This document shows, one piece after another, positions 33,292 through 53,869 of a stretch of 64,000 nucleotides of DNA (position 1 is the first letter of the stretch; each line of letters starts with the position of its first letter). The notes beneath the pieces were generated by a model that saw only the letters and a list, made by a program, of their open reading frames with translations, was not told where the DNA came from and ran no database searches. A program made the translations under genes and the position numbers. Source of the stretch: an uncultured Tateyamaria sp. (GTDB lineage Bacteria > Pseudomonadota > Alphaproteobacteria > Rhodobacterales > Rhodobacteraceae); NCBI RefSeq assembly GCF_947496075.1, contig NZ_CANMBJ010000006.1, positions 481,001 through 545,000 of the forward strand, given 5' to 3'.

Positions 33292-33309
33292 AAGCGCACC
33301 AAGTTACGT

Positions 33310-33332
33310 CCCGGCGCCTGTTGCGCGCCGGG
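33310..33332 (+). promoter_or_regulatory. Intercistronic hairpin between xylF and xylH
   Basis: CCCGGCGC and GCGCCGGG form a perfect 8-bp stem with a 7-base loop, without a T-run. Stems in this position commonly stabilise the 3' end of a binding-protein message or attenuate read-through, giving more binding protein than permease. Confidence 0.5.
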
Positions 33333-33439
33333 GCGGCACATGACCACACTCACCACACATTTCGGCACATCGTGACGGCAGGCTTGCCTGTCGACGGAGA
33401 CATTGTGCCACCGCAACCGGGTAACAAAGGGCAGGGCGC

Positions 33440-34705: not shown

Positions 34706-34719
34706 GGGAGGACTTTGAT

Positions 34720-35466: not shown

Positions 35467-36401
35467 TGCAGGATGCGGGTGTGCAGGATCGGGCTATTGG
35501 CCTTGTTGCTGATGTTGGCGGGACGAATACGCGTATGGCCTTTGTTGGTCGCGATGGGGTCATCGCGGACACGGTGGTGAAGTGTCCCAATGCCGATTTT
35601 GGCAGCTTTCTTGATCTTGCGACCAACTACCTGGATGGGCGTTCAGTGCCATCTCATGTCGTTATCGCGGTGGCTGGTCCTGTGGCAGGCGATCGCGCTC
35701 GTCTGACGAACCGGAATTGGGATTTCGATGCGGGTGCCCTTGCTGCCGCTTTCGGTGCTGACGAGGTGGTTTTGATCAACGACCTTGAGGCGTTGGGACA
35801 GGCGGTGCCCACCGTTGCACCCGATGCGGTTGAGCCATTGCACGACGGCGCTGCTCTTGGCGGCGCCGGGCAGGCGCTGGTGGTTGGTCTTGGCACGGGG
35901 TTCAACGTGTCGGCCGTCAACATGGAGAGTGGCACCGTTTTCACGTCAGAGCAGGGCCATGCCAGCCTACCGTCCAGCGTGATGTCCATCCTGCAGGCGC
36001 ATATGCCTGACACGGCGCGTTTCGACAGTGTCGAGAACCTGTTTTCCGGCGTTGGCCTGTTGCGTCTGGCCCATGTCATTGGTGTGGATGTCGATAGCGC
36101 CGAGCAATTGGCCAAGTCCGATGACCCCCGTGCCCGCGAAGCGCTTGAGGTTTGTACCGAGGCCTTTGGCCTTATGGTGCGTGAATTGGCCTATTCCTAT
36201 TTCCCGCGGGCGGGGCTGTACTTTAACGGGTCGTTGGCGAAGTTCCTGATGGCGCCGGAACGGCGGGAGCGCGTGCTAGCCCCATTGCGTGCTGACAGCA
36301 GCTTTGACGGGCAGTTCGCCCGTATTCCGGCGTTTCTGTTCGTGTCGGACACCGTCGCTTTGGGCGGCTGCGCTGCGCGGTTGTTGGCGCGCGTCAGCTA
36401 A
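35466..36401 (+). CDS. glk: Glucokinase (Glk family)
   Basis: 311 residues. GLVADVGGTNTRMAFVGRDG is the phosphate-binding loop of bacterial glucokinases; VAGPVAGDRARLTNRNWDFD and INDLEALGQAVP carry the sugar-binding residues. It phosphorylates glucose with ATP, and the start overlaps the xylG stop (TAATG). Its location suggests that glucose, or a hexose taken up by the same importer, is also processed. The 3' end overlaps the convergent hydratase gene by 8 bases. Confidence 0.88.
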   Translation: MQDAGVQDRAIGLVADVGGTNTRMAFVGRDGVIADTVVKCPNADFGSFLDLATNYLDGRSVPSHVVIAVAGPVAGDRARLTNRNWDFDAGALAAAFGADEVVLINDLEALGQAVPTVAPDAVEPLHDGAALGGAGQALVVGLGTGFNVSAVNMESGTVFTSEQGHASLPSSVMSILQAHMPDTARFDSVENLFSGVGLLRLAHVIGVDVDSAEQLAKSDDPRAREALEVCTEAFGLMVRELAYSYFPRAGLYFNGSLAKFLMAPERRERVLAPLRADSSFDGQFARIPAFLFVSDTVALGGCAARLLARVS

Positions 36402-37188
36402 AGCTTAGATCAACGCGTCCAAAGCTGCCGAAATCGGCTTCTATATTGGTGCCCGGCGGGCATTCTATTGGACGGATAAAGCTGCCTGACAAGATCACCT
36501 GGCCTGCCTTGATCGTGTTGCCGTAGAGCGCCATGCGCCGCGCGAGCCAAACCACGCTTTCCACCGGATCGTTCAGGACACCCGCACCAAGCCCCGTTTC
36601 CTCGACCGTGTTGCCCATTTTCACGATTACCCCGACCCAGCGTAGGTTTTCCGGTGCGTTGCGTTGGGTACCAACGACAATGCCCGCATTTGCCGCATTA
36701 TCGGCGATGGTATCGAAAACCTTGCGCGGCTGACCTGTGTCCGGGTCCGCGCGCAGGATGCGGGTGTCGAGGATTTCAAGGGCTGGCACCACGTAGTCTG
36801 TCGCGGCCAGCACGTCGTCGCGGGTCACGTCTGCGCCGCCGATATCTGATTTCATGACAAAGGCGATCTCGGCCTCGATCCGCGGTTGGATGAAGTGGCC
36901 CGCGGGGATCGTGGCGCCTGTGTCGAATTGCATGGACTGCGTCAGAACCCCGCTATCGGGAATGTCGATGTTCAGTGCCATCTGCATCGCGCGGCTGGTC
37001 AGCCCGATTTTCCAACCGATCACTGGATCGCCTGCAGCGACCTTGGCCGCGACGACCTGTTCCTGAATTGCATAGGCATCGTCCATGTCGATGTCCGGAT
37101 GCGCGACTGACAGCAGGCCGATCTGTTGGCCTGTTCGCTCCGCCTCGACAAGCGCAAGGGCCGCGGTCTTGTGGTCCTCAGGTGTCAT
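36394..37188 (-). CDS. hpaH: 2-oxo-hepta-4-ene-1,7-dioate hydratase (HpaH type)
   Basis: 264 residues. GWKIGLTSRAMQMALNIDIP and QPRIEAEIAFVMKSDI carry the metal-binding acidic residues of the hydratase/decarboxylase branch of the FAH superfamily; the LTSRAMQMALNI segment is typical of HpaH. It adds water to 2-oxohept-4-ene-1,7-dioate in homoprotocatechuate breakdown. It follows the FAH-type gene with an 11-base overlap and ends convergently over glk. The related MhpD/2-oxopent-4-enoate hydratase is the alternative, but neighbouring hpaD and hpaE favour HpaH. Confidence 0.8.
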   Translation of the reverse strand: MTPEDHKTAALALVEAERTGQQIGLLSVAHPDIDMDDAYAIQEQVVAAKVAAGDPVIGWKIGLTSRAMQMALNIDIPDSGVLTQSMQFDTGATIPAGHFIQPRIEAEIAFVMKSDIGGADVTRDDVLAATDYVVPALEILDTRILRADPDTGQPRKVFDTIADNAANAGIVVGTQRNAPENLRWVGVIVKMGNTVEETGLGAGVLNDPVESVVWLARRMALYGNTIKAGQVILSGSFIRPIECPPGTNIEADFGSFGRVDLSFS

Positions 37189-38029
37189 CGATAACCTCGC
37201 TGCGCAGTGTGCCGATGCCTTCTGCGGCTACTTCGACGACGTCGCCGGGTTTGAGGAATTTCGGCGGATCGAACCGTGCACCTGCGCCGGTAGGCGTGCC
37301 GGTCACGATGATGTCGCCGGGCACCAGGGTGGTGAAGGTCGAGATGTAGGCGATCTGGCGGCGGATTGGGAAAAGCATGCGAGAGGTCCGGTCGTCTTGC
37401 CGCAACTCACTGTTCACATGGGTTGTCAGGCGGATATCGTCCAGTTGCGCTGCATGGGTGAACGGCACGATCCATGGGCCCATTGCCCCCGAGGCGTCCC
37501 AGTTCTTACCCTGCGTGACGTTGAACTTGGCATGGCGAACCCAGTCGCGAATGGTGCCCTCGTTGCAGAGGGTCAGGGCCGCGATGTGGTCGTAAGCATC
37601 CGCCTCGGCAATCCGCCGCCCGCCCTTGCCTATGACGATGGCGATCTCGCCTTCGTAGTCCAGTTTCTCGCTTTCCGGGGGACGGATGACCGGCTGGTTG
37701 TGACCCGTGAAGCTGCGTGGGAAGCGGGGGAAGAGCGACATGTTCGGCGGCGCCTCGTGCCCGTCTTTGTACTCGGCATTGCGGTCGGGGAAATTTACGC
37801 CGACGCAGATGATCTTTTCCGGGTTGGGGACGGGGATATCATAGGTGACATCGTGATGCGTGGCCGTGCGCCCTTGGGCAGCTTTCGCAAGCGCGTGCAG
37901 GCCGTCGTTTTCGATAACGTTGCGCAGGGTGGTCCATTGAGGAAAGTTGGGGGACAGGGGGATCATCCCGTTATCTGCCACCGCGCCGTAATATTGGTTT
38001 CCGGCGGTGGTGTAGGTGGCGAATTTCAT
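37178..38029 (-). CDS. Fumarylacetoacetate hydrolase family protein, probable HHDD isomerase / OPET decarboxylase step
   Basis: 283 residues from an ATG at 38029, overlapping the decarboxylase stop by 4 bases. IICVGVNFPDRNAEYKDGHE and LDYEGEIAIVIGKGGRRI carry the catalytic and metal-binding residues of the FAH C-terminal fold, and GDIIVTGTPTGAGARFDPPK closes the site. In a homoprotocatechuate operon the fitting role is decarboxylation of 5-oxopent-3-ene-1,2,5-tricarboxylate and isomerisation to the HpaH substrate. E. coli HpaG is a two-domain protein of about 430 residues; this one has a single domain and may act as a homodimer. Another FAH-type hydrolase activity cannot be excluded. Confidence 0.78.
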   Translation of the reverse strand: MKFATYTTAGNQYYGAVADNGMIPLSPNFPQWTTLRNVIENDGLHALAKAAQGRTATHHDVTYDIPVPNPEKIICVGVNFPDRNAEYKDGHEAPPNMSLFPRFPRSFTGHNQPVIRPPESEKLDYEGEIAIVIGKGGRRIAEADAYDHIAALTLCNEGTIRDWVRHAKFNVTQGKNWDASGAMGPWIVPFTHAAQLDDIRLTTHVNSELRQDDRTSRMLFPIRRQIAYISTFTTLVPGDIIVTGTPTGAGARFDPPKFLKPGDVVEVAAEGIGTLRSEVIDDT

Positions 38030-39423
38030 AGGCCTCTCGCAATCTCGGTGATTGTGTCGAAGGCGGTGTTGAAATCCCGTTCTTCGCAATCAAACTGCCC
38101 GGCCTGGAAGCGGATCACCTTTTGCCCGTCGACCAGCGTTTGGGTCAGGTAGATGCGGCCATCGTCATTGATGGAATCCACAAGGCGTTGGGTGTCGTCG
38201 TTCGACGCGCCCGCAGCCTTGAAGGTCCACAGCGACAGGATCGGTTCGGTCACGATCTCGAAATCATCTTCGGCCCGGAGCCGCTCGCACAGGGCCTGAC
38301 TCCAGGCAACATGGTTGCGAATACGACTGCGCAACCCTTCCATGCCGTAGTGCCGCATCAGGAACCACAGTTTGAGCGCGCGGAACCTGCGGCCCAGCGG
38401 GATCGTCCATTCTGAATAGTCGATGACGTCCTCGGCCCCGTGCGTCTTGAGGTATTCGGGGCGGATCGCGAGCGTCTGACGGAGTTGGTCGGGATCGCGC
38501 AAGAAATGCGCTGCACAGTCGAATTGTGCCCCCAGCCATTTGTGCGGGTTGAAGACAATACTGTCGAAGCGATCGGCCCCGGTCCAGAGCGTGCGGAATT
38601 CCGGGCAGATCATGGCTGTGCCGGCCCATGCCGCGTCGAGATGGGTGTAGATGCCATGTTCTTCGGCCACTGCAGCGACCGCTTCAAGGTCGTCGCTGGC
38701 GCCCATGCCGGTGGCGCCGGTCGCAGCGATGATCCCGGCCGGGATGCGCCCCGCCTGCTTGTCCTCGGCAATGGCGGCTTCCAGATCCAGCGGGTCCATG
38801 TGACGCAGATCGCCGGTGGTGCGGATCTTGACCAGATTGTCCTGTCCGATGCCCGCGACCCAGATGGCGCGGTCGATGGAGGTGTGTACCTGATCTGAAC
38901 AGTAGATACGCAGCTGCGGTTGTCCGTGCAGCCCTTCGATATTGCCGCGGAATTCCAACGCGCGTTCGCGCATGGTAAGGACGGCGGCGAGCGTGGCTGA
39001 CGAGGCGCTATCCTGAATGACGCCCTGATACCCTTCGGGCAGGCCAAGGCCCTGACGCAGCCAGTCCATCATCCGCGTCTCCATCTCGGTCGCGGCGGGC
39101 GAGGTTTGCCAGAGCATGCATTGCGGCGCGATAATGGATGTCAGAAATTCGGCCAGAACCGACGCGGGCGCGGCGTTCGAGTTGAAGTAAGCGAAGAAGC
39201 GCGGGTGCTGCCAATGGGTGATGCCCGGCATCACGATGCGTTCGAAGTCTTCCAGGATCGCCGCCAGATCAGTTCCATCTTCTGGCGGTGCGTCTGCAAG
39301 TTGCGCGGCGATCTCTCCCGGCTTGGTTTGCGCGCGTACCGGGCGATCGCGGAGGGTGTTGTGGTAGTTTACCCCCCAATCGGCAGCATCCTTGGCGTGT
39401 TTGGCGAAATCGTCCCAGCTCAT
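38026..39423 (-). CDS. PLP-dependent aromatic-L-amino-acid decarboxylase family protein
   Basis: 465 residues from an ATG at 39423. The group II decarboxylase fold has HPRFFAYFNSNAAPASVLAE, an essential aspartate at THLDAAWAG (Asp263) and the cofactor lysine in FNPHKWLGAQFDC (Lys295). Family members decarboxylate DOPA, tyrosine, tryptophan or phenylalanine to amines; some plant and insect members form aldehydes instead. Sitting between hpaD and the FAH/HpaH genes, it may feed DOPA or tyrosine into homoprotocatechuate via dopamine or tyramine. This is not a standard member of the hpa operon of E. coli. The substrate is inferred from context. Confidence 0.85.
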   Translation of the reverse strand: MSWDDFAKHAKDAADWGVNYHNTLRDRPVRAQTKPGEIAAQLADAPPEDGTDLAAILEDFERIVMPGITHWQHPRFFAYFNSNAAPASVLAEFLTSIIAPQCMLWQTSPAATEMETRMMDWLRQGLGLPEGYQGVIQDSASSATLAAVLTMRERALEFRGNIEGLHGQPQLRIYCSDQVHTSIDRAIWVAGIGQDNLVKIRTTGDLRHMDPLDLEAAIAEDKQAGRIPAGIIAATGATGMGASDDLEAVAAVAEEHGIYTHLDAAWAGTAMICPEFRTLWTGADRFDSIVFNPHKWLGAQFDCAAHFLRDPDQLRQTLAIRPEYLKTHGAEDVIDYSEWTIPLGRRFRALKLWFLMRHYGMEGLRSRIRNHVAWSQALCERLRAEDDFEIVTEPILSLWTFKAAGASNDDTQRLVDSINDDGRIYLTQTLVDGQKVIRFQAGQFDCEERDFNTAFDTITEIARGL

Positions 39424-39498: not shown

Positions 39499-40479
39499 TC
39501 AGGGTGCCACGATGGGCTGTGCTTTGAGAAGGGGGGCGGACGTGTCCACGCCATCGAACAGGCTGCCTTCCTCGAACCAGCTGCGCGGAGCGGGAGCGCC
39601 CCAAAGGGTTTGGCGTTGTGGGTCCTTGAGGTCCCATTTGATCGGTTCGTGGTCGGGATCGACGGTTTGGTAGTCCGAGCAGTAGATCTCGATCCGGTGG
39701 CCATCGGGGTCGCGGATATAAAGGAAGAAGGCGTTCGAGATGCCGTGCCGCCCGGGGCCGCGCTCGATGTTCTCGCGGTAGCCCGTCGTACTCATCAGAT
39801 CGAGCAGGTCAATGATGTTGAGCGGGGTAGGGACCCAGAAAGCCGAATGGTGCAGGCGCGGCCCTGTGCCGTTGGTGAAGGCGATGTCATGCACGCCGCC
39901 CTTTCGGTGCATCCATGCGGCCCAGGTTTTGCCTGTCTCTGCGTCTTCGGTGTATTCTGTCGTGCGGAACCCCATCTGTGTGTAGAACGCAACCGCCCCG
40001 TCCACGTCGGATGAGAACAGGTTGAAATGGTCGATGCGCAGCGGTTTGACGCCCCGATAGAGCGCGTATTTCTGCGCGATGGTCGGCAGGCGGTCCATCT
40101 GAACATAGAATTCGAGAGGCACACCCCATGGATCGGTGGTTTGCAGGACGCGGCCCATGAAGGGGCGGTCGATCCATGCAGTGGGTTGACCTTGGGTGCG
40201 GAACCACGCCTCAGCCTTGTCGAGATCGGGGTGGTCGTAGAGCTTGAAGCCGAGCCTTGCGACACTGGCGCTGCCCGATCGGGTCAGGATGATGCAGTGG
40301 TGACCACGCTCCTCCATCGCGCGCAGGTAGATCGTTTGATCGTCTTGATGTGTAATCTGCAGGCCGAGTGTATCCACGTAGAAGGCGCGCGAGGCTGCAA
40401 GGTCCGCCACCCGGTATTCCACGTGGCTGAGCCGCACGATGTTGAACGGCGGGTAAAGCTCGGGCGGAGGGATCGGCAT
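39499..40479 (-). CDS. hpaD: Homoprotocatechuate 2,3-dioxygenase (extradiol, type I)
   Basis: 326 residues with two vicinal-oxygen-chelate domains. Likely metal ligands are His151 (RIDHFN), His211 (LHHSAFW) and Glu264 (HRIEIY); His197 (GGVHDIA) matches the second-sphere acid-base histidine. These correspond to His155, His214, Glu267 and His200 of the well-studied Brevibacterium enzyme. It cleaves 3,4-dihydroxyphenylacetate next to the diol, giving 5-carboxymethyl-2-hydroxymuconate semialdehyde, the substrate of the adjacent dehydrogenase. This is the VOC-fold type, unlike the LigB-type HpaD of E. coli. Substrate assignment rests on similarity and neighbours. Confidence 0.9.
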   Translation of the reverse strand: MPIPPPELYPPFNIVRLSHVEYRVADLAASRAFYVDTLGLQITHQDDQTIYLRAMEERGHHCIILTRSGSASVARLGFKLYDHPDLDKAEAWFRTQGQPTAWIDRPFMGRVLQTTDPWGVPLEFYVQMDRLPTIAQKYALYRGVKPLRIDHFNLFSSDVDGAVAFYTQMGFRTTEYTEDAETGKTWAAWMHRKGGVHDIAFTNGTGPRLHHSAFWVPTPLNIIDLLDLMSTTGYRENIERGPGRHGISNAFFLYIRDPDGHRIEIYCSDYQTVDPDHEPIKWDLKDPQRQTLWGAPAPRSWFEEGSLFDGVDTSAPLLKAQPIVAP

Positions 40480-40583: not shown

Positions 40584-42095
40584 TCATGTGCCGAGCCGGG
40601 GGATTTTCGGGTCACCGGTGGCGATGCCGATATGTTTCTGTTCCATGTAGAATTCGAACGACCAATCGCCGCCGTCGCGTCCGATGCCGCTGGCTTTCAT
40701 ACCGCCAAACGGCGTGGGCAGGTGCCGGACATTGGCGGAGTTGACCCAGATCATACCGGCTTCGAGCCCATCGGTGAACCGCATGGCGCGGGTGACGTCC
40801 GCGGTCCAGACATAGCCGGTCAGGCCGTAGGCTGTATCGTTGGCGATGTGCAGGGCCTGTTCTTCTGTTTCAAAGCGGATGGAGGTGAGGACCGGGCCGA
40901 AGATTTCCTCTTGGGCGATTTTCATGTCGTTTGTCGCGTTGGTGAAGAGGGTTGGGGCCACGAATTGGCCTGTGTCTCCAACGCGTGTGCCGCCTGCTGC
41001 GATTGTGGCCCCTTCGGCTTTGGCCGTGTCGAAGCTGGCCATGACCTTGGCCCTGTGTCCTGCGTGGATGAGAGGACCAACCTCGGTTGCGGGGTCCAGT
41101 GGGTGGCCCACGTTGATTGCTTTCGCGCGGGCTGCGAGTTTTGCCTCGAAGTCATCGGCGATCGTGTCCTGCACCAGCAGGCGTGAGGAGGACGTACAGC
41201 GTTCGCCGTTGAGCGAGTAGATCATGAAGATGGCGGCATCGAGCGCATTGTCGAGGTCGGCGTCATCAAAGACCACCACGGGATTTTTGCCGCCCAGTTC
41301 GAAGTGTACACGTTTCAGGGTGGGCGCACCCTGGGCCATGATGGCGGACCCGGTTTTCGACTCGCCCACGAAGGCGATTGCCTTGATGTCCGGGTGTTCG
41401 GTCAAGACGCGCCCTGCGTCCTCGCCCATCCCGTTGACCAGGTTCCAGACGCCCGGGGGCAAGCCTGCTTCTTCGGCGATCTCGATCAGGATGCGAGCGG
41501 TCCAGGGGCTGAGTTCGGCGGGTTTGTGAACGACCGTGCAGCCAGCAGCGAGTGCTGGGGCGATCTTCCAAGTGGACAACATGAAGGGCGTGTTCCACGG
41601 GGTAATGACGCCCACAGGACCAATTGGCACGCGGGTTGTGATGTTCATCAGGGTGGGCGAGGGAAGCGCCTGCCCGTCGCGGGCCGCTGGTGCACGGTCG
41701 GCGAAGAAGCGGAAATTGGCGGCGCCGCGCAGGGCGGCTTTGGACATGAAGCGCAGGGCTTGGCCTGTGTCCCAGCATTCACACAGCGCGATTTCTTCGG
41801 CGCGCGCTTCGATCCCGTCGGCAATGGCGTGCAGGATGCGCTTGCGGTCGGCGGCAGGCATGTCGCGCCATGCGGGAAAAGCGGCTTTGGCCGCTTGGGC
41901 GGCTGCGTCGATGTCTTGCGCATCACTGCGGGCAACACGGGCGATCATGCTGTCATCCACGGGTGATGTCGTGTCGAACCATGCTCCGGATGCGGCGGGA
42001 ACAGCCTGTCCGTTGATATGGTTCAGGATGCCCGTTTCCCCGATCCGGGTCAGGTGTGGGGCCAGATTTGCGATGTTGTCGTGCAGCGCTGACAT
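40584..42095 (-). CDS. hpaE: 5-carboxymethyl-2-hydroxymuconate semialdehyde dehydrogenase
   Basis: 503 residues of the aldehyde dehydrogenase superfamily. Asn168 (PWNTP), Glu266 (FELGGKNP) and Cys300 (NGERCTS) form the catalytic set, and SLNGERCTSSSRLLVQ is characteristic of HpaE. It oxidises the ring-cleavage semialdehyde with NAD to the dicarboxylate. It is the promoter-proximal gene of the leftward hpa operon and its start is 19 bases from the IclR operator palindrome. An isomerase (HpaF) for the next step is not seen in the window. Confidence 0.88.
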   Translation of the reverse strand: MSALHDNIANLAPHLTRIGETGILNHINGQAVPAASGAWFDTTSPVDDSMIARVARSDAQDIDAAAQAAKAAFPAWRDMPAADRKRILHAIADGIEARAEEIALCECWDTGQALRFMSKAALRGAANFRFFADRAPAARDGQALPSPTLMNITTRVPIGPVGVITPWNTPFMLSTWKIAPALAAGCTVVHKPAELSPWTARILIEIAEEAGLPPGVWNLVNGMGEDAGRVLTEHPDIKAIAFVGESKTGSAIMAQGAPTLKRVHFELGGKNPVVVFDDADLDNALDAAIFMIYSLNGERCTSSSRLLVQDTIADDFEAKLAARAKAINVGHPLDPATEVGPLIHAGHRAKVMASFDTAKAEGATIAAGGTRVGDTGQFVAPTLFTNATNDMKIAQEEIFGPVLTSIRFETEEQALHIANDTAYGLTGYVWTADVTRAMRFTDGLEAGMIWVNSANVRHLPTPFGGMKASGIGRDGGDWSFEFYMEQKHIGIATGDPKIPRLGT

Positions 42096-42130: not shown

Positions 42131-42184
42131 GATGGATGCAAAAATATATTGCAAGGGGATGGCAGGTGGGTCAAGCTTCATCCT

Positions 42185-42985
42185 ATGTCGACCATCGCCA
42201 AGGCCTTGGGTCTGTTGGACCTGTTCAGTGATGCCCGGCCCCGTTTGGGGTTGTCCGACGTGCAGCGCCTGACCGGGCGGGACAAGGCGACGGTGCATCG
42301 TCACCTTGTAGCGCTTGAGCAGGCGGGGTTTCTTGAGCAGGACACAAGCACGCGGGCCTACCGCCTTGGAGCTGCTTTGACCCGGCTGGCGGGGATGCGC
42401 GTGCGCACCGTGCCCGAGGTCGAGATGCTGCGCAGCGTCATTGACGATCTCAGCCGCGATGCAGGTGAGTTGGTGCATGTCAGTCGTTTGCAGGGCTTTG
42501 ACCTAGTCCATGTGCACCACGCCGAGGAACACAATCATCCAGTGCGGGTCAGTTTCGATGCCTATGGCCTGCCACCCCTGTTTGCGACCGCGTCAGGCAA
42601 GGCGTATCTGGCCTTTGCCCCGGGCGGGCTGTTGGACCTTGCCCTGGCTGACCCACGCACGCAGTTGCCAGGCGCGCCGGCGCCGAACCGGATGGAGGTC
42701 GAGGGGGAATTGAAGCAGATCGCGCAGCGTGGATATGCCCGCAATCGCGATGCCTTGCGCCTCGGCGTGTCGTCGGTTGCCATCCCGTTGTTTGACGCTG
42801 CCAGCAGGGCTTTTGCCACCTGTTCCATTGCCTATCCCACGGGTCGCGGCGGCAAGGCGACCGAGGCGCATTTGGCGCGTCTGCTCATGGCGCGCGGGGA
42901 AGAGATCAGTCAGGCCCTGGGCGGCTCCGTGCCATCCCATATCGTCCAGCTTTGGACACCGGCACAGGAAAGGGCCGCGTCATGA
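42185..42985 (+). CDS. IclR family transcriptional regulator
   Basis: 266 residues from the ATG at 42185; a TTG at 42149 would add 12 residues ahead of the domain and is less likely. The N-terminal winged helix-turn-helix includes LGLSDVQRLTGRDKATVHRH, and the C-terminal ligand domain includes VRVSFDAYGLPPLFATASGK, with the family's LP...TA.GKA segment. IclR proteins repress or activate catabolic operons on binding aromatic or small carboxylate effectors. It overlaps the aminotransferase gene by 4 bases and is divergent from hpaE across a perfect palindrome, so it probably governs both operons. Confidence 0.9.
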   Translation: MSTIAKALGLLDLFSDARPRLGLSDVQRLTGRDKATVHRHLVALEQAGFLEQDTSTRAYRLGAALTRLAGMRVRTVPEVEMLRSVIDDLSRDAGELVHVSRLQGFDLVHVHHAEEHNHPVRVSFDAYGLPPLFATASGKAYLAFAPGGLLDLALADPRTQLPGAPAPNRMEVEGELKQIAQRGYARNRDALRLGVSSVAIPLFDAASRAFATCSIAYPTGRGGKATEAHLARLLMARGEEISQALGGSVPSHIVQLWTPAQERAAS

Positions 42986-44343
42986 AGGACAGCAACTTTC
43001 TGAAGGAACACAACGCCCGCCAGTTCTGGCATCCCATGGCGCACCCCGCCGACAGCATGGCGAACCCGCCCACGATCCTGACAGGGGGTGAGGGGGTGTT
43101 CATCACCGACGTGGACGGTCACCGCAGCATTGATGCCGTTGGCGGCCTCTGGAACGTCAATCTGGGCTATTCCTGCCAACCGGTGAAGGACGCGATTGCA
43201 GGGCAACTAGATGCGCTGCCCTACTATTCGACGTTCCGAGGTACGTCGAACGACAAGGCGATTGAGTTGGCGTATTTACTGGCCGACTTCTTTGGCTCCG
43301 ATGGCATGACGCGCAGCTTTTTCACCAGTGGTGGGTCGGACAGTATCGAGATCGCGCTGAAGCTGGCCCGCCAGTACCACCGCATCCGGGGCGAGGGTGC
43401 GCGGACCAAGTTCATCAGCCTCGACAAAGGGTATCACGGCACGCATTTTGGTGGGGCATCGGTCAATGGGAATGCAAAGTTCCGCAATTCCTATGAGCCG
43501 CTCATGGCAGGGTGCTACCACATCCCCGGACCTTACCTGTATCGCAATCCGTTTGGCACGGACGATCCCGAGGAACTCGCGCACCTGAGTGCGGGGATGT
43601 TGGAGCGTGAGATCGCCTTTCAGGGTGCCAACACCATTGCTGCCTTCATCATGGAGCCGGTGCAGGGCGCGGGCGGTGTGATCCCGCCGCACCCCAGTTT
43701 CATGCCCATGGTGCGCGACATCTGCGAGAAGCACGGCGTGCTGCTGATCGCGGATGAAGTGATCACTGCCTTTGGGCGCACAGGGGATGAGACAGGATCG
43801 CGCCATTGGGGCGTGCAGCCGGACCTGATGTGCACGGCCAAGGCCATCACAAATGGCTACTTTCCCTTCGGGGCCGTGATGATCGCTGATCATGTCGCGG
43901 CTGTGTTTGAAGATGATGAAAGCGGGGTCGGGTCCGTCGATTCCGGCTATACCTATTCAGGTCACCCGGTCGGGGCGGCTGCTGCCGTGGCAGCGGTGGA
44001 AGAGACGATGCGTATCCGACCGTGGGAGAATGCGCGGGCCCGTGGGCCAGAGCTAAAGGCCGGATTGAACGCTTTGTCGGAACGGTATGATCACATCGGG
44101 GATGTGCGGGGCGAAGGTTTGATGTGCGCCATCGAGCTGGTGAGCGACCGAGGCAACAAGACCCCGATTGGCAAGGCGCTGCCTTTGGTGTTTCAGAAGG
44201 CGGCCTATGAGGACGGTGTGATGATCCGGGTGTCAGGCAACAACGCCATCTTCTCACCGCCCTTGGTCATCGATGCGGGGCACGTACAGAAAATACTGTC
44301 TGCCACCGAAACCGGCCTGAAGGCCATGGCCGAGGTGGCGTGA
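42982..44343 (+). CDS. Class III (omega) aminotransferase
   Basis: 453 residues from an ATG at 42982 forming an ATGA overlap with iclR. PLP-binding features are TSGGSDSIEIALKLARQYH, Asp258 in LLIADEVITAFGRTG and the Schiff-base Lys287 in CTAKAITNGYFPFGA. It resembles omega-amino acid:pyruvate or putrescine/SpuC-type transaminases, which move terminal amino groups from amines or beta-alanine-like compounds to pyruvate. Its place with an amide ligase, amidase and aromatic decarboxylase suggests an arylalkylamine or diamine substrate; this is inferred. Confidence 0.87.
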   Translation: MKDSNFLKEHNARQFWHPMAHPADSMANPPTILTGGEGVFITDVDGHRSIDAVGGLWNVNLGYSCQPVKDAIAGQLDALPYYSTFRGTSNDKAIELAYLLADFFGSDGMTRSFFTSGGSDSIEIALKLARQYHRIRGEGARTKFISLDKGYHGTHFGGASVNGNAKFRNSYEPLMAGCYHIPGPYLYRNPFGTDDPEELAHLSAGMLEREIAFQGANTIAAFIMEPVQGAGGVIPPHPSFMPMVRDICEKHGVLLIADEVITAFGRTGDETGSRHWGVQPDLMCTAKAITNGYFPFGAVMIADHVAAVFEDDESGVGSVDSGYTYSGHPVGAAAAVAAVEETMRIRPWENARARGPELKAGLNALSERYDHIGDVRGEGLMCAIELVSDRGNKTPIGKALPLVFQKAAYEDGVMIRVSGNNAIFSPPLVIDAGHVQKILSATETGLKAMAEVA

Positions 44344-45080
44344 AGTCAAGGTCAGCATCCCCAGCGCCGCGCAGCGCAACGGCGGTGCGGCCCATCCGGT
44401 CAGACACCACGGGGCGCGCTTTTGCCAGTGCCTGCCCGCCAGACAGCAAGATCAATGTCACCGACATCACCGATTTCCGGCGCGGGCGGGGGGATCTGAT
44501 CTTTTCCATGTTCATGGCCGGTTTGGCCCTGTTCTTTCTTGTCTTCTTCTTCACTCAAACGGGGTGGGAGGACCGCAAACTGCCGCAGAACATGGCGCGC
44601 TATTGGATGGACCAGTTTGGGGTAACCGCACCCGAAGGGCGCACTGCCCGCCTGGGCCGCATCCTCAAGCAAAGCTGGGTGGCGCCGTTGATCTGTCTGG
44701 GGGTTTTGGTGCCTGCCGCCCTTTGGAACCTGCGCGGGGCATGGCGGGCGCAGGCGTGGCGACAGCGGTTCAAGCAGCCAACCGGCATTGCCCATGAGCT
44801 GGGGCAGTGGTTGCGCGCGCTGGAATATGTCGTTTGGTTCGTGGCCTACACTCTGCTTGTGCCAGTGCTTGGTTATCTAGTGTCGACAGTGTTGTTGGGG
44901 ACGCTCTTGCCATGGTGTCTAGGTTATCGCGGCTGGCGGTGGATGGGCATTTGTCTGGCGGCGAGTTTAGCCATCGTTCTGGTCTTTCGCACCGGGCTAC
45001 AGATCAAGACTCCAGTGAATATCTGGCTTTATGACCAACTGCCGCAGCGCATGGAAACCTTCATGCAGGTGTGGTTCTGA
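44340..45080 (+). CDS. tctB: Tripartite tricarboxylate transporter small membrane subunit, TctB family
   Basis: 246 residues from a GTG at 44340 overlapping the aminotransferase stop. About four hydrophobic helices are visible (LIFSMFMAGLALFFLVFFFT, then APLICLGVLVPAALW and two more). The cytoplasmic N-terminus of about 50 residues is longer than in many TctB proteins. It is the small membrane partner of TctA in a secondary, binding protein-dependent importer. The TctA gene starts on the last base of its stop. Confidence 0.8.
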   Translation: MKSRSASPAPRSATAVRPIRSDTTGRAFASACPPDSKINVTDITDFRRGRGDLIFSMFMAGLALFFLVFFFTQTGWEDRKLPQNMARYWMDQFGVTAPEGRTARLGRILKQSWVAPLICLGVLVPAALWNLRGAWRAQAWRQRFKQPTGIAHELGQWLRALEYVVWFVAYTLLVPVLGYLVSTVLLGTLLPWCLGYRGWRWMGICLAASLAIVLVFRTGLQIKTPVNIWLYDQLPQRMETFMQVWF

Positions 45081-46570
45081 TGGAGGCGTTTTGGACCGGC
45101 CTCGACAACCTCGCCAGCGTGCCTGTTCTGGTGGCGATCCTCATTGGCTCTGTGGGTGGGTTGGCGATTGGGGCCGTGCCGGGGATCGGGCCGGCCATTG
45201 CCATTGCGATCCTGCTGCCCGCGACCGTTTTTTTGGATGACCTTGTGTCTCTGGTGCTGCTGTTGGGGGTCTATGGATCCAGCATGTACGGCGGTGCCAT
45301 CCCCGCCATTCTGATCAATACGCCGGGCACGCCGGTGAATGCGCTGACCACCTATGACGGTTATGCTATGACCCGGCGGGGTGAGGCGGCTCGGGGGTTA
45401 TCGCTGGCCTACTCTGCGTCCTTTTTCGGGGGCTGCTTTTCCATCCTGCTCGGGCTTGGGGCGCTGATGCTGTTCGGCCCATACCTGCGCGATCTGGGCG
45501 CGCTGTTCGGACAGCGGGATATTTTCATGGCCGCAGCCCTCGGTGCAGTTCTGCTGATCGCGGCGCATCGCAAGACGATGGGGATTGCGGCGCTGCTTTT
45601 CGGACTTGGGTTTCTCATTGCACTGGTCGGGCGGCAATCGCTCAAGCAGATCGACCGCTATACGTTCGGCATCGAATACCTTTACCCCGGCTTCAACCTG
45701 ATCGTCGTCATCTTGGGTATCTTCGCCATTTCACAAGCGCTGTTCCTGCTGACCGGTAAGGATGCCGACCCACCCGAGGCGCGGCTCAAAGGCGGTCTGT
45801 TGCGCGGGTTCGGGGAACTGCGCAAACACCCAGCCGTGGCGACCATCAGCGCGGGCTACGGAACTATCATGGGGATCATCCCGGGGGTGGGTGAGTTCGT
45901 GGCACAGTTCTTCAGCTACTCCACTGCGCGCGCCATGTCGAAAGAGCCCGGCAAGTTTGGGCGTGGCGCGCCCGACGGTTTGATTGCGTCCGAGGCAAGC
46001 AACAACGCAGTGCCAGCTGCCGCTATGGTGCCCCTTCTAGCGCTGGGCGTGCCGGGCGAAGCGTTGACGGCCATGATGATGGTCGTGTTCTTTGATGCAG
46101 GCATCAAACCCGGCCCCGACATATTCGAGAATAACCCGGATTTCCTGTTCTCTCTTTTTATCGCGCTTTTGATCATCAACGTGCTGGTCATCATCACGCT
46201 GCTGATGTCCACGAAATGGATTGCGCGCATCATTTATGTCCCCAACCGTCTCTTGGGCGCGTTCATCCTGATCCTGGCCTTTGTTGGCGTCTTTTCGATC
46301 CGCAACTCGTTTGCGGATTGCATGTTCGCCGCTGGCTTCGGTTACCTGGGCTTTATCCTGCGCCGTCTCGACTGGCCACTTGTACCCATCGTGCTGGGCC
46401 TCGTCCTCGGTTCGATCATGATCGAGAAGCTGACGGCGGGGGCAGGTCAGATCAAAACCGTCTTCGATCTGGTGAACCGGCCTGTGTCGGGCACACTTTT
46501 TGTTGTCATCCTGATCGTGATTGGTGTCACGATCGCCCAAAGCCTCCGGACGAAGAGGTTTGAACATTAA
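45080..46570 (+). CDS. tctA: Tripartite tricarboxylate transporter large membrane subunit, TctA family
   Basis: 496 residues with about eleven membrane segments. GAVPGIGPAIAIAILLPATV and SMYGGAIPAILINTPGTPVN are the conserved TctA glycine- and proline-rich loops, repeated in the second half as GIIPGVGEFVAQFFSYSTAR and ASNNAVPAAAMVPLLALGVP. The start at 45080 is coupled to the TctB stop (TGATG). It carries the solute delivered by TctC using an ion gradient. TTT substrates are commonly carboxylates, but aromatic carboxylates are also known. Confidence 0.95.
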   Translation: MEAFWTGLDNLASVPVLVAILIGSVGGLAIGAVPGIGPAIAIAILLPATVFLDDLVSLVLLLGVYGSSMYGGAIPAILINTPGTPVNALTTYDGYAMTRRGEAARGLSLAYSASFFGGCFSILLGLGALMLFGPYLRDLGALFGQRDIFMAAALGAVLLIAAHRKTMGIAALLFGLGFLIALVGRQSLKQIDRYTFGIEYLYPGFNLIVVILGIFAISQALFLLTGKDADPPEARLKGGLLRGFGELRKHPAVATISAGYGTIMGIIPGVGEFVAQFFSYSTARAMSKEPGKFGRGAPDGLIASEASNNAVPAAAMVPLLALGVPGEALTAMMMVVFFDAGIKPGPDIFENNPDFLFSLFIALLIINVLVIITLLMSTKWIARIIYVPNRLLGAFILILAFVGVFSIRNSFADCMFAAGFGYLGFILRRLDWPLVPIVLGLVLGSIMIEKLTAGAGQIKTVFDLVNRPVSGTLFVVILIVIGVTIAQSLRTKRFEH

Positions 46571-46607
46571 CCACCAAAAGCAAAAAACAATCTCAGGGAG
46601 AGTACAT

Positions 46608-47540
46608 ATGAAAAAGCTTTTGACCTCAGCGGCCTTTGCCTTGGCCGCCCTGACCGGCCCCGCGTTGGCCGAATATCCCACCGGTCCGGTGCAGTTCATC
46701 GTGCCGTGGCCTCCTGGCGATTTCGAGGACATTCTGACGCGCATGATCGCCGCCGATATGGCCGAAGCGACGGGGCAACCGGCTTCGGTCGTGAACCGTC
46801 CCGGCGGCGGGGATGGCCCATTCCCCGGCGCTTTGGAGGTGCTGAATGCGCCCAATGACGGATCGGTCATCGGGTCCTTTGTGATCGGTGTGCCAATTGT
46901 TGGCCCGAAGATCGATATTGGCATCGAAGAGGACAGCTTTGTTCCCGTCGGGATATTCCTGACCTACCCGTTCGTGCTGGCTGCTTCGGGCGATGCGCCC
47001 TATTCCAACATGGCCGAACTGGCCGCCCATGCGCAAGACAATGACGTCGTTCTGGGTCACTTTGGTGCGGGCCTGACGCCCACGGCGGTGTCCATGGCGG
47101 CAGCGGCCAAGATGGGGTTCGAGTTTGCCGATGACAGCGCCTTTGACCTGCTGGACTGCAATACGCTGTTGTCGGGCGATGCCGATGTGATCAATACGAC
47201 GCTCGCGCTGATCGAACCCTGCCTGGATGACATCAACGTGCTGGGCAACATTGGCGCTCAGCCCATTGCGAAGCTCGATGGAGTAGAGACCATCGCAGCT
47301 CAATCGGGTGTGAATGATGTTGAATTGTGGAACGGCCTGTTCGTGACCAAGGGCACGCCACAGGAGGTCATCGATACCATTGCCGAAGTGGCAGCCAAAA
47401 CCATGGCATCGGATGAAGCGCAGGCATTGATGGCCGAGACCGGGGCCGCTGTCTACTGGCAAGGCCAGGAGGAGGCACAGGCGCGCATCGAAGCGGACCG
47501 CGCCAAGTCAGCCGAGATCAACGAGATCCTGGGTCGCTGA
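46608..47540 (+). CDS. tctC: Tripartite tricarboxylate transporter periplasmic binding protein, TctC (Bug) family
   Basis: 310 residues from an ATG at 46608 with GGGAG at 46596-46600. The signal peptide (KKLLTSAAFALAALTGPALA) precedes YPTGPVQFIVPWPPGDFEDI, the ligand-binding start of Bug proteins, and VVNRPGGGDGPFPGALEVLN. Typical members have GG.xD in the first loop; here the segment is PPGDFED, with GD retained. It should capture a carboxylate in the periplasm for TctAB. A hairpin follows its stop. Confidence 0.9.
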   Translation: MKKLLTSAAFALAALTGPALAEYPTGPVQFIVPWPPGDFEDILTRMIAADMAEATGQPASVVNRPGGGDGPFPGALEVLNAPNDGSVIGSFVIGVPIVGPKIDIGIEEDSFVPVGIFLTYPFVLAASGDAPYSNMAELAAHAQDNDVVLGHFGAGLTPTAVSMAAAAKMGFEFADDSAFDLLDCNTLLSGDADVINTTLALIEPCLDDINVLGNIGAQPIAKLDGVETIAAQSGVNDVELWNGLFVTKGTPQEVIDTIAEVAAKTMASDEAQALMAETGAAVYWQGQEEAQARIEADRAKSAEINEILGR

Positions 47541-47588: not shown

Positions 47589-48302
47589 ATGCCCCGCCTG
47601 AAGCTCGGTATCCTGCAAGTGAACCACGACCGGTCGGTCGAGGTTGGCGATGCCTTTCCTGACGATGCGCACCGCTTCCGCGATTTGTTCGATGCACAGG
47701 ATCAGCGGTTCACCTACCGTGTTTACATGACCATCGGGGGCGAGGTCCCGCAGGATGTGGACGAACAGGATGCGTACCTGATCACCGGTTCGCCGCTGAG
47801 CGTTCTGGATGATCTGGCCTTTCTACCACCGCTCTACGATTTCATCCGGTCTTGCGATGCCGCAAAGAAGCCCTTGCTGGGCGCGTGTTTCGGACATCAG
47901 GCGATTGCGGTGGCGTTGGGCGGAACGGTGGCCCGGCAGGATTGGAACATCGGGATCGATCAAATCGAGGTCTCGGAAACCTTGCCATGGATGCAGCCCG
48001 TCGTGCCGTCCATCGGTCTCTACCAGTTTCACCATGACGCGGTGACGGCCTTGCCTGATGGGTGCGCGCCCTGGGCCACATCGCCCAAATGTGCCGTCGC
48101 CGGGTTCACCAAAGGCGACCACATCTTCACCACCCAAGCGCACCCGGAGTTTTCCGATCCGTTCATGCGCTGCGTGCTCGACTACACCAAACCGCATCTG
48201 AGCCCGGAGGAGGTGGCCGACGCCGAAGCAACGCTGACCCGCACCAATGACGGCCCGCTGTTCGCGGATTGGGCCACCCGCTTTTTCGGAGGCACGCCAT
48301 GA
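47589..48302 (+). CDS. Class I glutamine amidotransferase-like protein
   Basis: 237 residues from the ATG at 47589. The catalytic triad is visible: Cys100 in LLGACFGHQAIA, and His185 and Glu187 in TTQAHPEF. It is a free-standing GATase domain with no synthetase partner fused. Such proteins either supply ammonia or, as with PuuD and the TdnT-type proteins of aniline pathways, act on gamma-glutamyl amides. It overlaps the P450 gene by 4 bases, and a glutamine synthetase-like gene follows, which supports handling of a gamma-glutamylated amine. Other neighbours agree with amine metabolism. Confidence 0.87.
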   Translation: MPRLKLGILQVNHDRSVEVGDAFPDDAHRFRDLFDAQDQRFTYRVYMTIGGEVPQDVDEQDAYLITGSPLSVLDDLAFLPPLYDFIRSCDAAKKPLLGACFGHQAIAVALGGTVARQDWNIGIDQIEVSETLPWMQPVVPSIGLYQFHHDAVTALPDGCAPWATSPKCAVAGFTKGDHIFTTQAHPEFSDPFMRCVLDYTKPHLSPEEVADAEATLTRTNDGPLFADWATRFFGGTP

Positions 48303-49519
48303 AAAATCTCGCTGATCACGACAGCTTTGTGGATGGTGTGCCACACGAGACGTTCGCGCAGATGCGGGCCGAAGCGCCTGCGCATTGGACGGAAGCGTTT
48401 GGTGGGCAAAGGGGGTTTTGGTCCCTCACCCGCTATGCTGACATCATAGCGGCCCAAAAGGACCCAAACACGTTTTCCAGCGCCCAAGGCATCCGGATCG
48501 AAGATCAGAGCCACGAGGAATACCTCGCCCGCCGCACGTTTCAGGAAACCGACCCGCCCGAGCACACTGTGACCCGGCGTGCGGTGAACCCGGCCTTTGC
48601 CAAGCCGGTCGTCGCGCAGTTCGAACCCCTGATCCGCGAGTTGGCACAGGACATCGTAGCAGAGGCATTGGATCACACCGAATTCGATGCTGTCGACAAG
48701 ATCGCCAAACGCCTGCCCATGCTGATGCTGGGCCGCATCCTCGGTGTGCCGGATGCCGATCTGGATTGGCTCGTGGAACGGGGCGACGCATTGATCGGGA
48801 ATACCGATCCTGACTTTACCAATACGGTTATCGATAAGGTGGATACCGATGCTTACCGCATGATGCCCTTCCGCTCACCTGCCGGGGTGGAATTGTATGA
48901 TTATGCCGATGATATCCTGAACGGTACACGTGACGTGGATGACAAGGGCATCCTCGCCCGTGTGCTGCGCAGCGAAGACGGCGCAATCACCGGGCAGGAC
49001 TTCAAGAACTTCTTTTGTCTGCTGGTCGCGGCGGGCAATGACACGACCCGTTATTCGATCGCAATGGCGCTGCATCTGCTGACACAGCAAAAGGACCTGC
49101 TTGGAGCATTGCAGAGCGGGCAGGTGTGGGAGACCTGCGCAGATGAGTTCATTCGCCTCGCCTCGCCCACATTGCATTTTCGACGCACCGCGACACGGGA
49201 TATCGAGATGCACGGTCGGACCATTCGTGAAGGTGACAAGGTGTTGATGTGGTTCGTATCGGGCAGCCGCGACGAGGCGATGTTCGACAATCCCCATGTT
49301 GCGCAACTGGATCGCAGTCCGAACCGCCACGTCGCCTTCGGGCAGGGCGGACCGCATGTCTGTCTGGGCATGTGGCTTGCCAAGTTGGAACTGAAATGCG
49401 TGCTGCAGGAACTTGCGGGCCGGATCTACGCGCTAGACGCTGTGGGGCTGCCCACCTGGACACGCTCGAATTTTATCTGCGGGGTCAAATCGTTGACTGT
49501 CCGCTCAACGCTGAAGTGA
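48299..49519 (+). CDS. Cytochrome P450, class I bacterial type
   Basis: 406 residues from an ATG at 48299 overlapping the GATase stop. The oxygen-binding I-helix is AAGNDTT (244-250), the EXXR is EFIR at 283-286, and the heme loop AFGQGGPHVCLG places the heme ligand at Cys355. FQETDPPEHTVTRR is the conserved C-helix region. It is soluble and would hydroxylate, or N- or O-dealkylate, a small molecule with electrons from ferredoxin. No ferredoxin or reductase gene is adjacent, so partners must be encoded elsewhere. It lies between a GATase and a GS-like ligase, an arrangement pointing to a glutamylated amine as substrate. Confidence 0.94.
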   Translation: MKNLADHDSFVDGVPHETFAQMRAEAPAHWTEAFGGQRGFWSLTRYADIIAAQKDPNTFSSAQGIRIEDQSHEEYLARRTFQETDPPEHTVTRRAVNPAFAKPVVAQFEPLIRELAQDIVAEALDHTEFDAVDKIAKRLPMLMLGRILGVPDADLDWLVERGDALIGNTDPDFTNTVIDKVDTDAYRMMPFRSPAGVELYDYADDILNGTRDVDDKGILARVLRSEDGAITGQDFKNFFCLLVAAGNDTTRYSIAMALHLLTQQKDLLGALQSGQVWETCADEFIRLASPTLHFRRTATRDIEMHGRTIREGDKVLMWFVSGSRDEAMFDNPHVAQLDRSPNRHVAFGQGGPHVCLGMWLAKLELKCVLQELAGRIYALDAVGLPTWTRSNFICGVKSLTVRSTLK

Positions 49520-49524
49520 CGACC

Positions 49525-50793
49525 ATGACGAACCGCACCCGCACCCTTTTCTGTGATCTGCTCAACCTGCCACGGGGCAAGTTCGTGCCACCGGACGTGG
49601 CTGCGGGGGGCAAGATCGGTTTTGCCCGTGGTGTCTTTGGTACGACCTTTGACCGCGACCTGATCCCGGTCCCCGGGGCAGGGGTGTTCGACGGCATTCC
49701 GGACATGGAACTGGTGCTGGATGGTGACCGCCGCCCTGACTGGCAGCAGGACAGCGAAATCGCGCTGGGCACATTGCACGTGGATGGCGCGCCCTTTGGC
49801 CTTTGCGCTCGTGGGCGGTTGCAAGCCGCAGTCGCGGCGTGGGAGATGAAGGGGCTGACCCCGATGGTTGGCTTGGAGATGGAAGCCTATGTCTTCCAGC
49901 AGGATGCAGACGGGGTGTGGACACCCTACGACACCCCAGGTGCGTTCGTGTACGGCACGGGTCCGCAGAATGATCCTGCGGGGTTGATGGATGCGTTGTG
50001 GTCTACGGCAGATGCGGCTGGCCTGCCCATCGAGTCGATGAATGGCGAGTATGACAATGGCCAATTCGAACTGACAATGAAGTTCGAGACGGCCGTGGCG
50101 GCCTGTGACAACGCGTTTTTGTTCCGCACGATGGCACGAGAGGTCGCTGCAGAGATGGGGCTGTTGCTGACCTTCCTGCCCAAGCCCATTCCAGACCGGG
50201 GCGGGTCCGGTCTGCATGTGAATTTCAGTTTTGCGGACGCGCAAGGGGCCAATGTGATCGCGCCTGACGGTGCGCTGTCTGATATTGCCAAGGGATGCAT
50301 GGCGGGGCTCATCCACCATCACGAGGGGTTGGCAGGTTTGCTTGCTGCGACGGTCAACAGTTATGACCGTCTCGGCCCAGCATCCATGGCCGGGTATTGG
50401 GCCAATTGGGCCGATGACCACCGGCTTGTGACAACGCGGTCTTGCGTGAGCTCACCGCGCTCCGCCCGGTTGGAGCATCGCATGGCGGACTGCGCGACGA
50501 ACCCGTATCTTGCCGTTGCATCCGTTCTGCAGGCATCGCTTCTGGGTGTGAGTGGTGGCTATGCGCTGGAGCCGGCCGAGGACCTTGATGGCTTGGACAA
50601 CATCCGGGCGACCCGCCATGTACCATCGGCGCTGGACAAGGCGTTAGATGCGCTGGATGCGGACAAGCCCCTGCGCATGGCTGTGGGGGAAGCGATCTGC
50701 GATGCGTTGATCTTTCTCAAGCAAGACGAATGGAAGCGGCTCAAGGACAAGTCCGTGGATCAGGTGCGCGACTACTACCTGCCCTTCGTCTAG
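49525..50793 (+). CDS. Glutamine synthetase-like ligase (probable gamma-glutamyl amide synthetase)
   Basis: 422 residues starting 5 bases after the P450 stop. GS catalytic-domain motifs are present: VGLEMEAYVF with metal ligands Glu118 and Glu120, NGEYDNGQFELTM, PDRGGSGLHVNFSF and a C-terminal DCATNPYLAVA. The N-terminal domain is short and no regulatory Tyr adenylylation site is obvious. It is too diverged for housekeeping GlnA; the PuuA/GlnA3/TdnQ-like group joins glutamate to amines such as putrescine, isopropylamine or aniline at the expense of ATP. A P450 and a GATase in the same operon give the later steps of such a route. The amine is unknown. Confidence 0.87.
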   Translation: MTNRTRTLFCDLLNLPRGKFVPPDVAAGGKIGFARGVFGTTFDRDLIPVPGAGVFDGIPDMELVLDGDRRPDWQQDSEIALGTLHVDGAPFGLCARGRLQAAVAAWEMKGLTPMVGLEMEAYVFQQDADGVWTPYDTPGAFVYGTGPQNDPAGLMDALWSTADAAGLPIESMNGEYDNGQFELTMKFETAVAACDNAFLFRTMAREVAAEMGLLLTFLPKPIPDRGGSGLHVNFSFADAQGANVIAPDGALSDIAKGCMAGLIHHHEGLAGLLAATVNSYDRLGPASMAGYWANWADDHRLVTTRSCVSSPRSARLEHRMADCATNPYLAVASVLQASLLGVSGGYALEPAEDLDGLDNIRATRHVPSALDKALDALDADKPLRMAVGEAICDALIFLKQDEWKRLKDKSVDQVRDYYLPFV

Positions 50794-53745: not shown

Positions 53746-53869
53746 GTGGGTAATTTATCCATCTTGTAGACTGAAATCGGTATGGCTTTTCACACATTAG
53801 GCCATTCGCAGAGAAACTGAAATCCTTTCCCACCCAAGAACCGCGATACTATTGGAAAGGAGGCCGCAC

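Follow-up and report, generated by a model that had tools for sequence, protein, structure and literature searches.

A conserved GATase, cytochrome P450 and glutamine synthetase-like gene trio in an uncultured Tateyamaria sp.: a candidate glutamyl-tagging module for the oxidation of an aromatic amine

What does a cytochrome P450 oxidize when its gene lies between those of a glutamine amidotransferase-type protein and a glutamine synthetase-like protein? This question is raised by a 64,000-nucleotide stretch (the window; contig NZ_CANMBJ010000006.1, positions 481,001 to 545,000, forward strand) from an uncultured Tateyamaria sp. of the Rhodobacteraceae. At window positions 47589-50793, the plus strand encodes a class-I glutamine amidotransferase (GATase)-type protein (47589..48302; proposed gamma-glutamyl amide hydrolase), a soluble P450 that is CYP125-like by its closest solved structure (48299..49519) and a glutamine synthetase (GS)-like protein (49525..50793; proposed gamma-glutamyl amine ligase). 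We propose, with about even confidence, that these genes form a module that oxidizes an aromatic biogenic amine under a glutamyl tag, tyramine being the likeliest amine, and that feeds the homoprotocatechuate (HPC) pathway. Judged from the sequences, the general mechanism, in which the ligase would tag an amine, the P450 would oxidize it and the GATase would hydrolyze the product, is highly probable. The choice of tyramine as the exact substrate is made tentatively, with slightly less than even confidence.

The trio was confirmed as genuine by an open reading frame (ORF) check and Pfam searches, in which each product scored above the cut-off of its family (GATase, PF00117, 52.6 bits against 22.8; p450, PF00067, 75.2 bits against 22.8; Gln-synt_C, PF00120, 243 bits against 24). 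In line with the initial annotation, by which the genes overlap or lie within 5 bases, the GATase stop (48302) and the P450 ATG (48299) give a 4-base overlap and 5 bases separate the P450 end (49519) from the ligase ATG (49525); an alternative in-frame ligase start is the GTG at 49516. Its reading of the catalytic residues as intact in all three proteins was also borne out among homologues. The GATase residues C100/H185/E187 are kept in 69/69 aligned sequences (the window and 68 of the 71 GATase-bearing loci described below, the partial L058, L076 and L079 being left out). The P450 heme cysteine C355 is invariant in 15/15 sequences and is among the positions conserved at 97% or more in 81 aligned homologues. 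The two ligase glutamates (E118/E120 from the ATG; E119/E121 in the alignment frame) are kept in 79/79 sequences, comprising the window and 78/80 loci. The two loci omitted are L098, which is cut by a contig end, and L062, where the ligase match is in two pieces and the gene may be broken.

Conservation of the trio was assessed in two samples of relatives. In the first, gene layouts were read by tblastn in the best 80 named loci of at least 530 relatives (591 candidate stretches from a scan of species genomes). The P450 and ligase genes are neighbours on one strand in all 80, with a gap of 6-204 bp, and the GATase gene is adjacent in 71, either directly upstream on the same strand (44 loci) or divergent (27 loci). 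By name, more than half of these loci are from Rhodobacterales, although the names of metagenome-assembled genomes (MAGs) may mislead; the remainder are from SAR116, Granulosicoccaceae, Rhizobiales, other Alphaproteobacteria and a few other proteobacterial MAGs. The closest named locus among the matches listed is that of T. omphalii, with a P450 94% identical to that of the window. In the second sample, of 101 relatives, 23 carry the P450, and the neighbourhood was read in 20 of these (leaving out G028, G002 (split over contigs) and the window's own genome). The ligase accompanies the P450 in 20/20 and the GATase in 19/20, with none in L039. The GATase, P450 and ligase genes thus form a conserved module, the kind of triplet that the initial annotation had suggested searching for; a P450 not conserved next to the ligase, which would have spoken against that annotation's proposal, was found in none of the 80 loci.

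Is the GS-like protein a ligase for amines or for ammonia? Glu129, 131, 212 and 220, His269, Arg321, 339 and 344, Glu357 and Arg359, which we take to serve ATP, metals and glutamate, are kept in 79/79 aligned ligases. The column of Glu327, which by numbering and role we take to be the flap glutamate of the ammonium site, is Met or Leu in 79/79, while among the references (E. coli GlnA and PuuA, and IpuC of plasmid pTC1) it is Tyr in PuuA and Trp in IpuC. Based on this replacement, the protein is probably an amine ligase. Its scores against the GlnA, type III GS and gamma-glutamylputrescine synthetase models fall well short of their curated cut-offs, and its closest solved relative is a glutamate-methylamine ligase, followed by a type III glutamate-ammonia ligase. 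Amine ligases of the 1-naphthylamine type are described in PMC11335346 as having lost Asp50 and the flap glutamate (printed as Glu357), which could explain why ammonium is not used. Because the Glu357 column is Glu in 79/79 of our ligases, the flap residue was taken as 327; the Asp50 column is mixed and poorly aligned (Pro 33, Asp 20, Thr 10, others) and was given no weight. A glutamine synthetase that uses ammonia and has its neighbours by chance would be consistent with the Pfam catalytic domain and with nothing more. It is made very improbable by the loss of the flap glutamate, by the low scores against the GlnA and type III models and by the recurrence of the GS-P450 pair in Streptomyces and Embleya, where the P450 is 38-39% identical to that of the window.

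Among solved structures, the GATase is matched best by gamma-glutamyl peptidase 1 (E-value: 1.9e-18), which fits a role as a gamma-glutamyl amide hydrolase. The nearest solved structure to the P450 is CYP125MRCA (E-value: 3e-80), within a closest set of CYP125/126/124-type enzymes. Some of these are named as steroid or lipid oxidizers, a function that does not match the neighbouring genes, and assignment of a known CYP function was dropped. At P450 positions 60-93, 20 of 34 residues are conserved at 97% or more among the 81 aligned homologues, and many of these are charged (R66, E68, D69, E74, R78, R79). This region is the B-C loop, which usually varies among P450s; its high conservation here makes it reasonable to infer one polar substrate throughout the family. 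The family shares a second stretch, NTDPD...PFxSPA, with the Streptomyces and Embleya homologues. When the 81 P450s were searched with regular expressions, this stretch was matched in 74 and GIRxED in 80.

As for redox partners of the P450, 32/80 best loci have a 2Fe-2S ferredoxin gene immediately after the ligase gene and one more has it nearby, and a ferredoxin reductase is present in 10/80. In the window's own genome, the top homologues of ferredoxin (43%) and reductase (56%) are on other contigs, so the P450 probably uses partners in trans. The linkage of these genes also bears on the idea that ligase and GATase provide a reversible tag for detoxification or storage while the P450 acts on an unrelated substrate. 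Such a tag has been proposed for AtdA1/AtdA2 in aniline use, where, according to PMC11335346, a GATase-like enzyme converts gamma-glutamylanilide back to aniline and limits toxic build-up. However, the P450 and the ligase are the tightest pair (80/80 best loci), and they persist together in the nine loci where no GATase was detected, all nine of which carry a ferredoxin gene; we therefore regard an unrelated P450 substrate as improbable.

How new is such a module? A similar set of functions is reportedly used for isopropylamine by Pseudomonas KIE171 (the Ipu pathway). As outlined in PMC6776027, this pathway comprises the ligase IpuC, a P450 system whose substrate is gamma-glutamyl-isopropylamide and a postulated hydrolysis of the amidotransferase type. 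On plasmid pTC1 of Arthrobacter aurescens TC1, genes for GATase, P450, ferredoxin, reductase and IpuC lie in a row of five. The initial annotation had considered the GATase-P450-GS combination to be new; this does not stand, as the Ipu pathway uses it and pTC1 carries it. Its core proposal of a glutamyl ligase, P450 oxidation and GATase hydrolysis is supported by the conserved linkage, the altered ammonium site, the adjoining ferredoxin genes and the gamma-glutamyl peptidase relative. What is new is the likely substrate, the logic of glutamyl tag and P450 being already known for one other amine, isopropylamine. Searches of the open-licence PMC literature, which does not extend to subscription papers, brought up no account of a tyramine or dopamine pathway built from P450, GS and GATase.

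Could the module itself be an isopropylamine-type pathway for short alkyl amines that merely lies near aromatic genes? The window, like pTC1, has a GS-like ligase beside a P450 and a GATase, the same kinds of gene in nearly the same order. By analogy the module may work like the Ipu system, a likeness that falls short of membership. Identity to the pTC1 counterparts is only 28.5% for the ligase and 30% for the P450; the window GATase is 28% identical over 144 residues to AAur_pTC10062, while to AAur_pTC10065, the GATase of the pTC1 row, only 23 residues align (E-value: 0.17). The 79 aligned ligases form a clade that excludes IpuC, PuuA and GlnA, the only references, with a support of 0.96. The pTC1 P450 lacks both the conserved 60-93 region and the second, F-G stretch, and the window cluster differs from the pTC1 row in having no ferredoxin and reductase of its own. 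Finally, the window trio is linked to an aromatic decarboxylase and to HPC ring cleavage, and an alkyl amine substrate would leave unexplained the strong link to HpaD and the lack of one to PcaH described below. A short alkyl amine is accordingly a poor candidate. A putative "ipuC gamma-glutamylisopropylamide synthetase" is listed for the Roseobacter litoralis proteome in PMC4103551.

By description, the aniline and 1-naphthylamine systems (AtdA, TdnQ, NpaA) likewise combine a GS-like ligase, a GATase and an oxygenase to give a catechol-type ring that is then cleaved, but they use a Rieske dioxygenase on an aryl amine where we propose a P450 and an arylethylamine (PMC11335346). Neither a Rieske dioxygenase nor a PuuB-type flavin amine oxidase was found among the twelve Pfam-scanned cluster genes (TctA left out; for the amine oxidase, the rest of the genome was not searched). 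The E. coli Puu putrescine pathway shares a GS-like ligase (28% identity to PuuA) and a GATase-type hydrolase with the window, but the PuuB amine oxidase step is replaced here by a P450, and similarity to PuuD is confined to 33 aligned residues.

Pointers to the class of substrate, which the initial annotation omitted, come from the flanking genes: a decarboxylase, a transaminase, a Tct transporter and HPC meta-cleavage genes. On the plus strand, the trio is preceded, in order, by genes for an IclR-family regulator (42182..42985; PF01614, PF09339), a class-III aminotransferase proposed to be an amine transaminase (42982..44343; NF005683, 692 bits against a cut-off of 575) and a tripartite tricarboxylate-type transporter. 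The aminotransferase start is uncertain (the ORF opens at 42952), and its closest solved structures are 6s54, named only as aminotransferase family, and then the omega transaminase 5lh9. The transporter consists of the TctB permease subunit (44400..45080; PF07331; start uncertain, ORF opening at 44340), the TctA permease (45071..46570; an ORF whose homologues keep this position, named from the annotated TM1040 copy, 57% identical) and the TctC solute receptor (46605..47540; PF03401). Upstream and divergent, on the minus strand, lie genes for HpaE, a 5-carboxymethyl-2-hydroxymuconate semialdehyde dehydrogenase (40584..42095; TIGR02299, 762.7 bits against a cut-off of 638.35), HpaD, a homoprotocatechuate 2,3-dioxygenase (39499..40479; TIGR02295, 414.1 against 321.4), a probable aromatic L-amino-acid decarboxylase (38026..39420), an FAH-family protein that is probably an HpaG-type isomerase/decarboxylase (37178..38047; PF01557; TIGR02303, 168 bits, below the cut-off of 276) and HpaH, a 2-oxo-hept-4-ene-1,7-dioate hydratase (36394..37188; TIGR02312, 357.7 against 351.5). 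The decarboxylase reached the cut-off of no NCBIfam model and is named from its closest solved structures, which are DOPA (7xin, E-value: 3e-105), tyrosine (6eei, 9e-95) and aromatic-amino-acid decarboxylases, a histidine decarboxylase (4e1o, 7e-84) ranking slightly lower. With HpaD, HpaE and HpaH above curated cut-offs, the window resembles the Hpa pathway for 4-hydroxyphenylacetate and homoprotocatechuate; it differs in that no match to HpaB (PF03241) was found in its own genome.

The association with HPC genes extends well beyond the window. Among 292 genomes of the order, each at least 90% complete, the P450 is carried by 44, HpaD above cut-off by 81 and both by 40. HpaD is therefore present in 40/44 genomes with the P450 versus 41/248 without it (Fisher 5e-22, related genomes being counted as independent) and, by genus, in 26/26 versus 16/86, often on a different contig from the P450. 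The decarboxylase shows a similar pattern (43/44 versus 90/248), while the control ring-cleavage gene PcaH shows no link (26/44 versus 151/248). As HpaD is linked and PcaH is not, the module appears to go with homoprotocatechuate catabolism and not with the other ring-cleavage pathway tested. HpaB, the usual 4-hydroxyphenylacetate 3-hydroxylase, is present in 2/44 P450 genomes of the order sample. The 23 P450 genomes among the 101 relatives include 21 with HpaD, 22 with the decarboxylase and one with HpaB; outside the window's own genus, HpaD is found in 8/10 P450 genomes versus 4/71 others.

Gene neighbourhoods in the 80 best loci, counted by identity thresholds within the stretches examined for each locus, agree with this association. 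At least one HPC-type meta-cleavage gene is present in 28/80 (24 of the 57 loci that span 19 kb or more), including HpaD or a LigB-type dioxygenase in 23 of the 28. The decarboxylase is found in 29/80 (27/57), HPC genes or decarboxylase in 42/80 (36/57), the aminotransferase in 46/80 (40/57) and TctC or TctA in 55/80 (41/57). The placement of the HPC genes varies. In Tateyamaria they lie upstream and divergent; L062, L065 and L085 have them downstream, L064, L109 and L118 have them upstream in the same orientation, and L111 has them upstream on the opposite strand. Loci with HPC genes or decarboxylase fall on both sides of a midpoint-rooted P450 tree, in which support for the deepest nodes is weak. 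In L120, L124 and L099, a 35-40% identical decarboxylase gene (only partly on the contig in L099) lies 60-111 bp upstream of a P450-GS-ferredoxin-ferredoxin reductase series.

Based on these associations, we propose the following route, in which each reaction and the amine itself are inferred from gene content, conservation, active-site residues and co-occurrence. Tyramine would be supplied by the nearby decarboxylase or by uptake, and the GS-like ligase would use ATP to couple it to L-glutamate. Supplied with electrons by a 2Fe-2S ferredoxin and a reductase whose genes lie elsewhere in the genome, the P450 would hydroxylate the ring of the resulting gamma-glutamyl-tyramine to give gamma-glutamyl-dopamine, the glutamyl tag acting as a handle in the P450 pocket and as a mask for the amine. 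The GATase would then split gamma-glutamyl-dopamine into dopamine and glutamate, the class-III aminotransferase and an aldehyde dehydrogenase would convert dopamine to homoprotocatechuate, and HpaD, HpaE and the FAH/HpaH proteins would open the ring and complete its breakdown.

Several observations weigh against this route. Within the window there is no local redox partner for the P450, and in the best 80 loci the GATase was undetected in nine by tblastn or family profile, although two of these (L099 and L113) have under 700 bp of contig left upstream of the P450. Kinship in the order sample is handled only by the genus count. HpaD above cut-off is missing from 4/44 P450 genomes of the order (three of the four share genus g92, which also has an HpaD-bearing member) and from 2/23 of those among the relatives. 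Neither HPC genes nor decarboxylase were found in 38/80 best loci, a group that includes 21 of the 57 loci spanning 19 kb or more, and HpaE is the sole HPC gene in 5/28 HPC loci. HpaB and HpaC lie beside the trio in L068, L083, L084 and L086, and there the P450 would not be needed for 4-hydroxyphenylacetate hydroxylation. A special lack of HpaB in trio genomes was considered and rejected: HpaB is rare order-wide (16/292) and shows no depletion in genomes with the P450 (Fisher p 1.0), so its absence lends weak support. It is mostly missing in P450 genomes, other types of 4-hydroxyphenylacetate hydroxylase not having been searched for. Furthermore, among the 41 HpaD genomes without the P450, HpaB is absent from 39 and the decarboxylase present in 33. 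HPC catabolism that does without HpaB is thus not peculiar to the trio, and these P450-free genomes could live on dopamine or DOPA, with no hydroxylation step. Hydroxylation of tyramine as the missing step is thus plausible, not proven.

The four loci with HpaBC would make more sense if the P450 were not a 3-hydroxylase. The same tagging mechanism might serve a P450 that O-demethylates its substrate (for example, gamma-glutamyl-3-methoxytyramine) or takes another phenethylamine, with the catechol amine again passing to HPC; the linkage to HPC genes and decarboxylase fits this equally. Formaldehyde-handling genes were unnoticed among the identified neighbours, but they were not searched for. 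As the decarboxylase would need only common amino acids to make tyramine or dopamine, a methoxy compound is not needed, and we consider O-demethylation or another phenethylamine unlikely, though less so than an alkyl amine.

If the tyramine route is correct, it would provide a P450 pathway from a biogenic amine to a catecholamine via a glutamyl tag in many marine and soil bacteria (44/292 sampled order genomes carry the P450), explain how the HPC ring-cleavage pathway is fed in genomes without HpaBC, give a function to an uncharacterized P450 family and establish glutamyl tagging with P450 oxidation as a catabolic strategy beyond isopropylamine. A bolder possibility, which we hold only tentatively, is that a glutamylation-P450 route from tyramine to dopamine is widespread and undescribed, and that clusters without a detected GATase (in Streptomyces, Novosphingobium and several proteobacterial MAGs) may keep the tag through ring cleavage, an HpaD_Fe-type extradiol dioxygenase opening gamma-glutamyl-dopamine itself. 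An Actinomycetota parallel, which also speaks for the HPC link, is a Streptomyces canus plasmid on which the gene order is GS, P450, ferredoxin, FAD reductase, ADC, aldehyde dehydrogenase, "3,4-dihydroxyphenylacetate 2,3-dioxygenase" and FAH; the best model for the dioxygenase is TIGR02298 (127 bits against a cut-off of 316). A Novosphingobium plasmid, L101, L105, L120 and L124 have a similar ADC/LigB set with the GATase undetected, and an Embleya plasmid has GS, P450 and ADC genes with a weak 22-bit GATase-profile match at the edge of the stretch examined. The version of the module in which no GATase was detected, seen at L137 (1-8230), L126 (9682-19102), L101, L105, L120 and L124 in Streptomyces, Novosphingobium, Dongia and MAGs, includes an ADC-family protein, an extradiol dioxygenase of the LigB type that resembles HpaD_Fe but scores below the cut-off, a dehydrogenase similar to HpaE and an FAH protein.

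Further genes were noted near the trio or its associated pathway. In a genus mate without the P450 (G003:C1:116958-117606), the HpaD match is in two adjoining pieces (model positions 1-95 and 178-298). The gene thus looks broken, and the ring-cleavage route may be decaying in genomes that lack the module. In several roseobacters, homogentisate hmgA and fumarylacetoacetase (above cut-off), an HpaI-like aldolase (357.6 bits, just under the cut-off of 368.8) and an FAD-dependent oxidoreductase are found near the trio (L089 293-1654, L117 1720-2976, L102 7745-8512, L115 4101-5912). In Ruegeria sp. TM1040, a laboratory roseobacter (L125 7097-10895), the trio adjoins paaABCD, the phenylacetyl-CoA epoxidase genes. 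A Tm-1-like UPF0261 protein is encoded near the trio in 20/80 best loci (e.g. L086 12591-13829) and an MBL-fold hydrolase in 8/80. Elsewhere in the window, inspection of ORFs identified a 1140 aa ORF resembling indolepyruvate ferredoxin oxidoreductase with an adjoining Lrp-like regulator (53852-57274), perhaps also concerned with aromatic amino acid breakdown, and a xylose-type utilization block (25241-36401) with a kinase, an isomerase, a sugar ABC transporter and ROK-like proteins.

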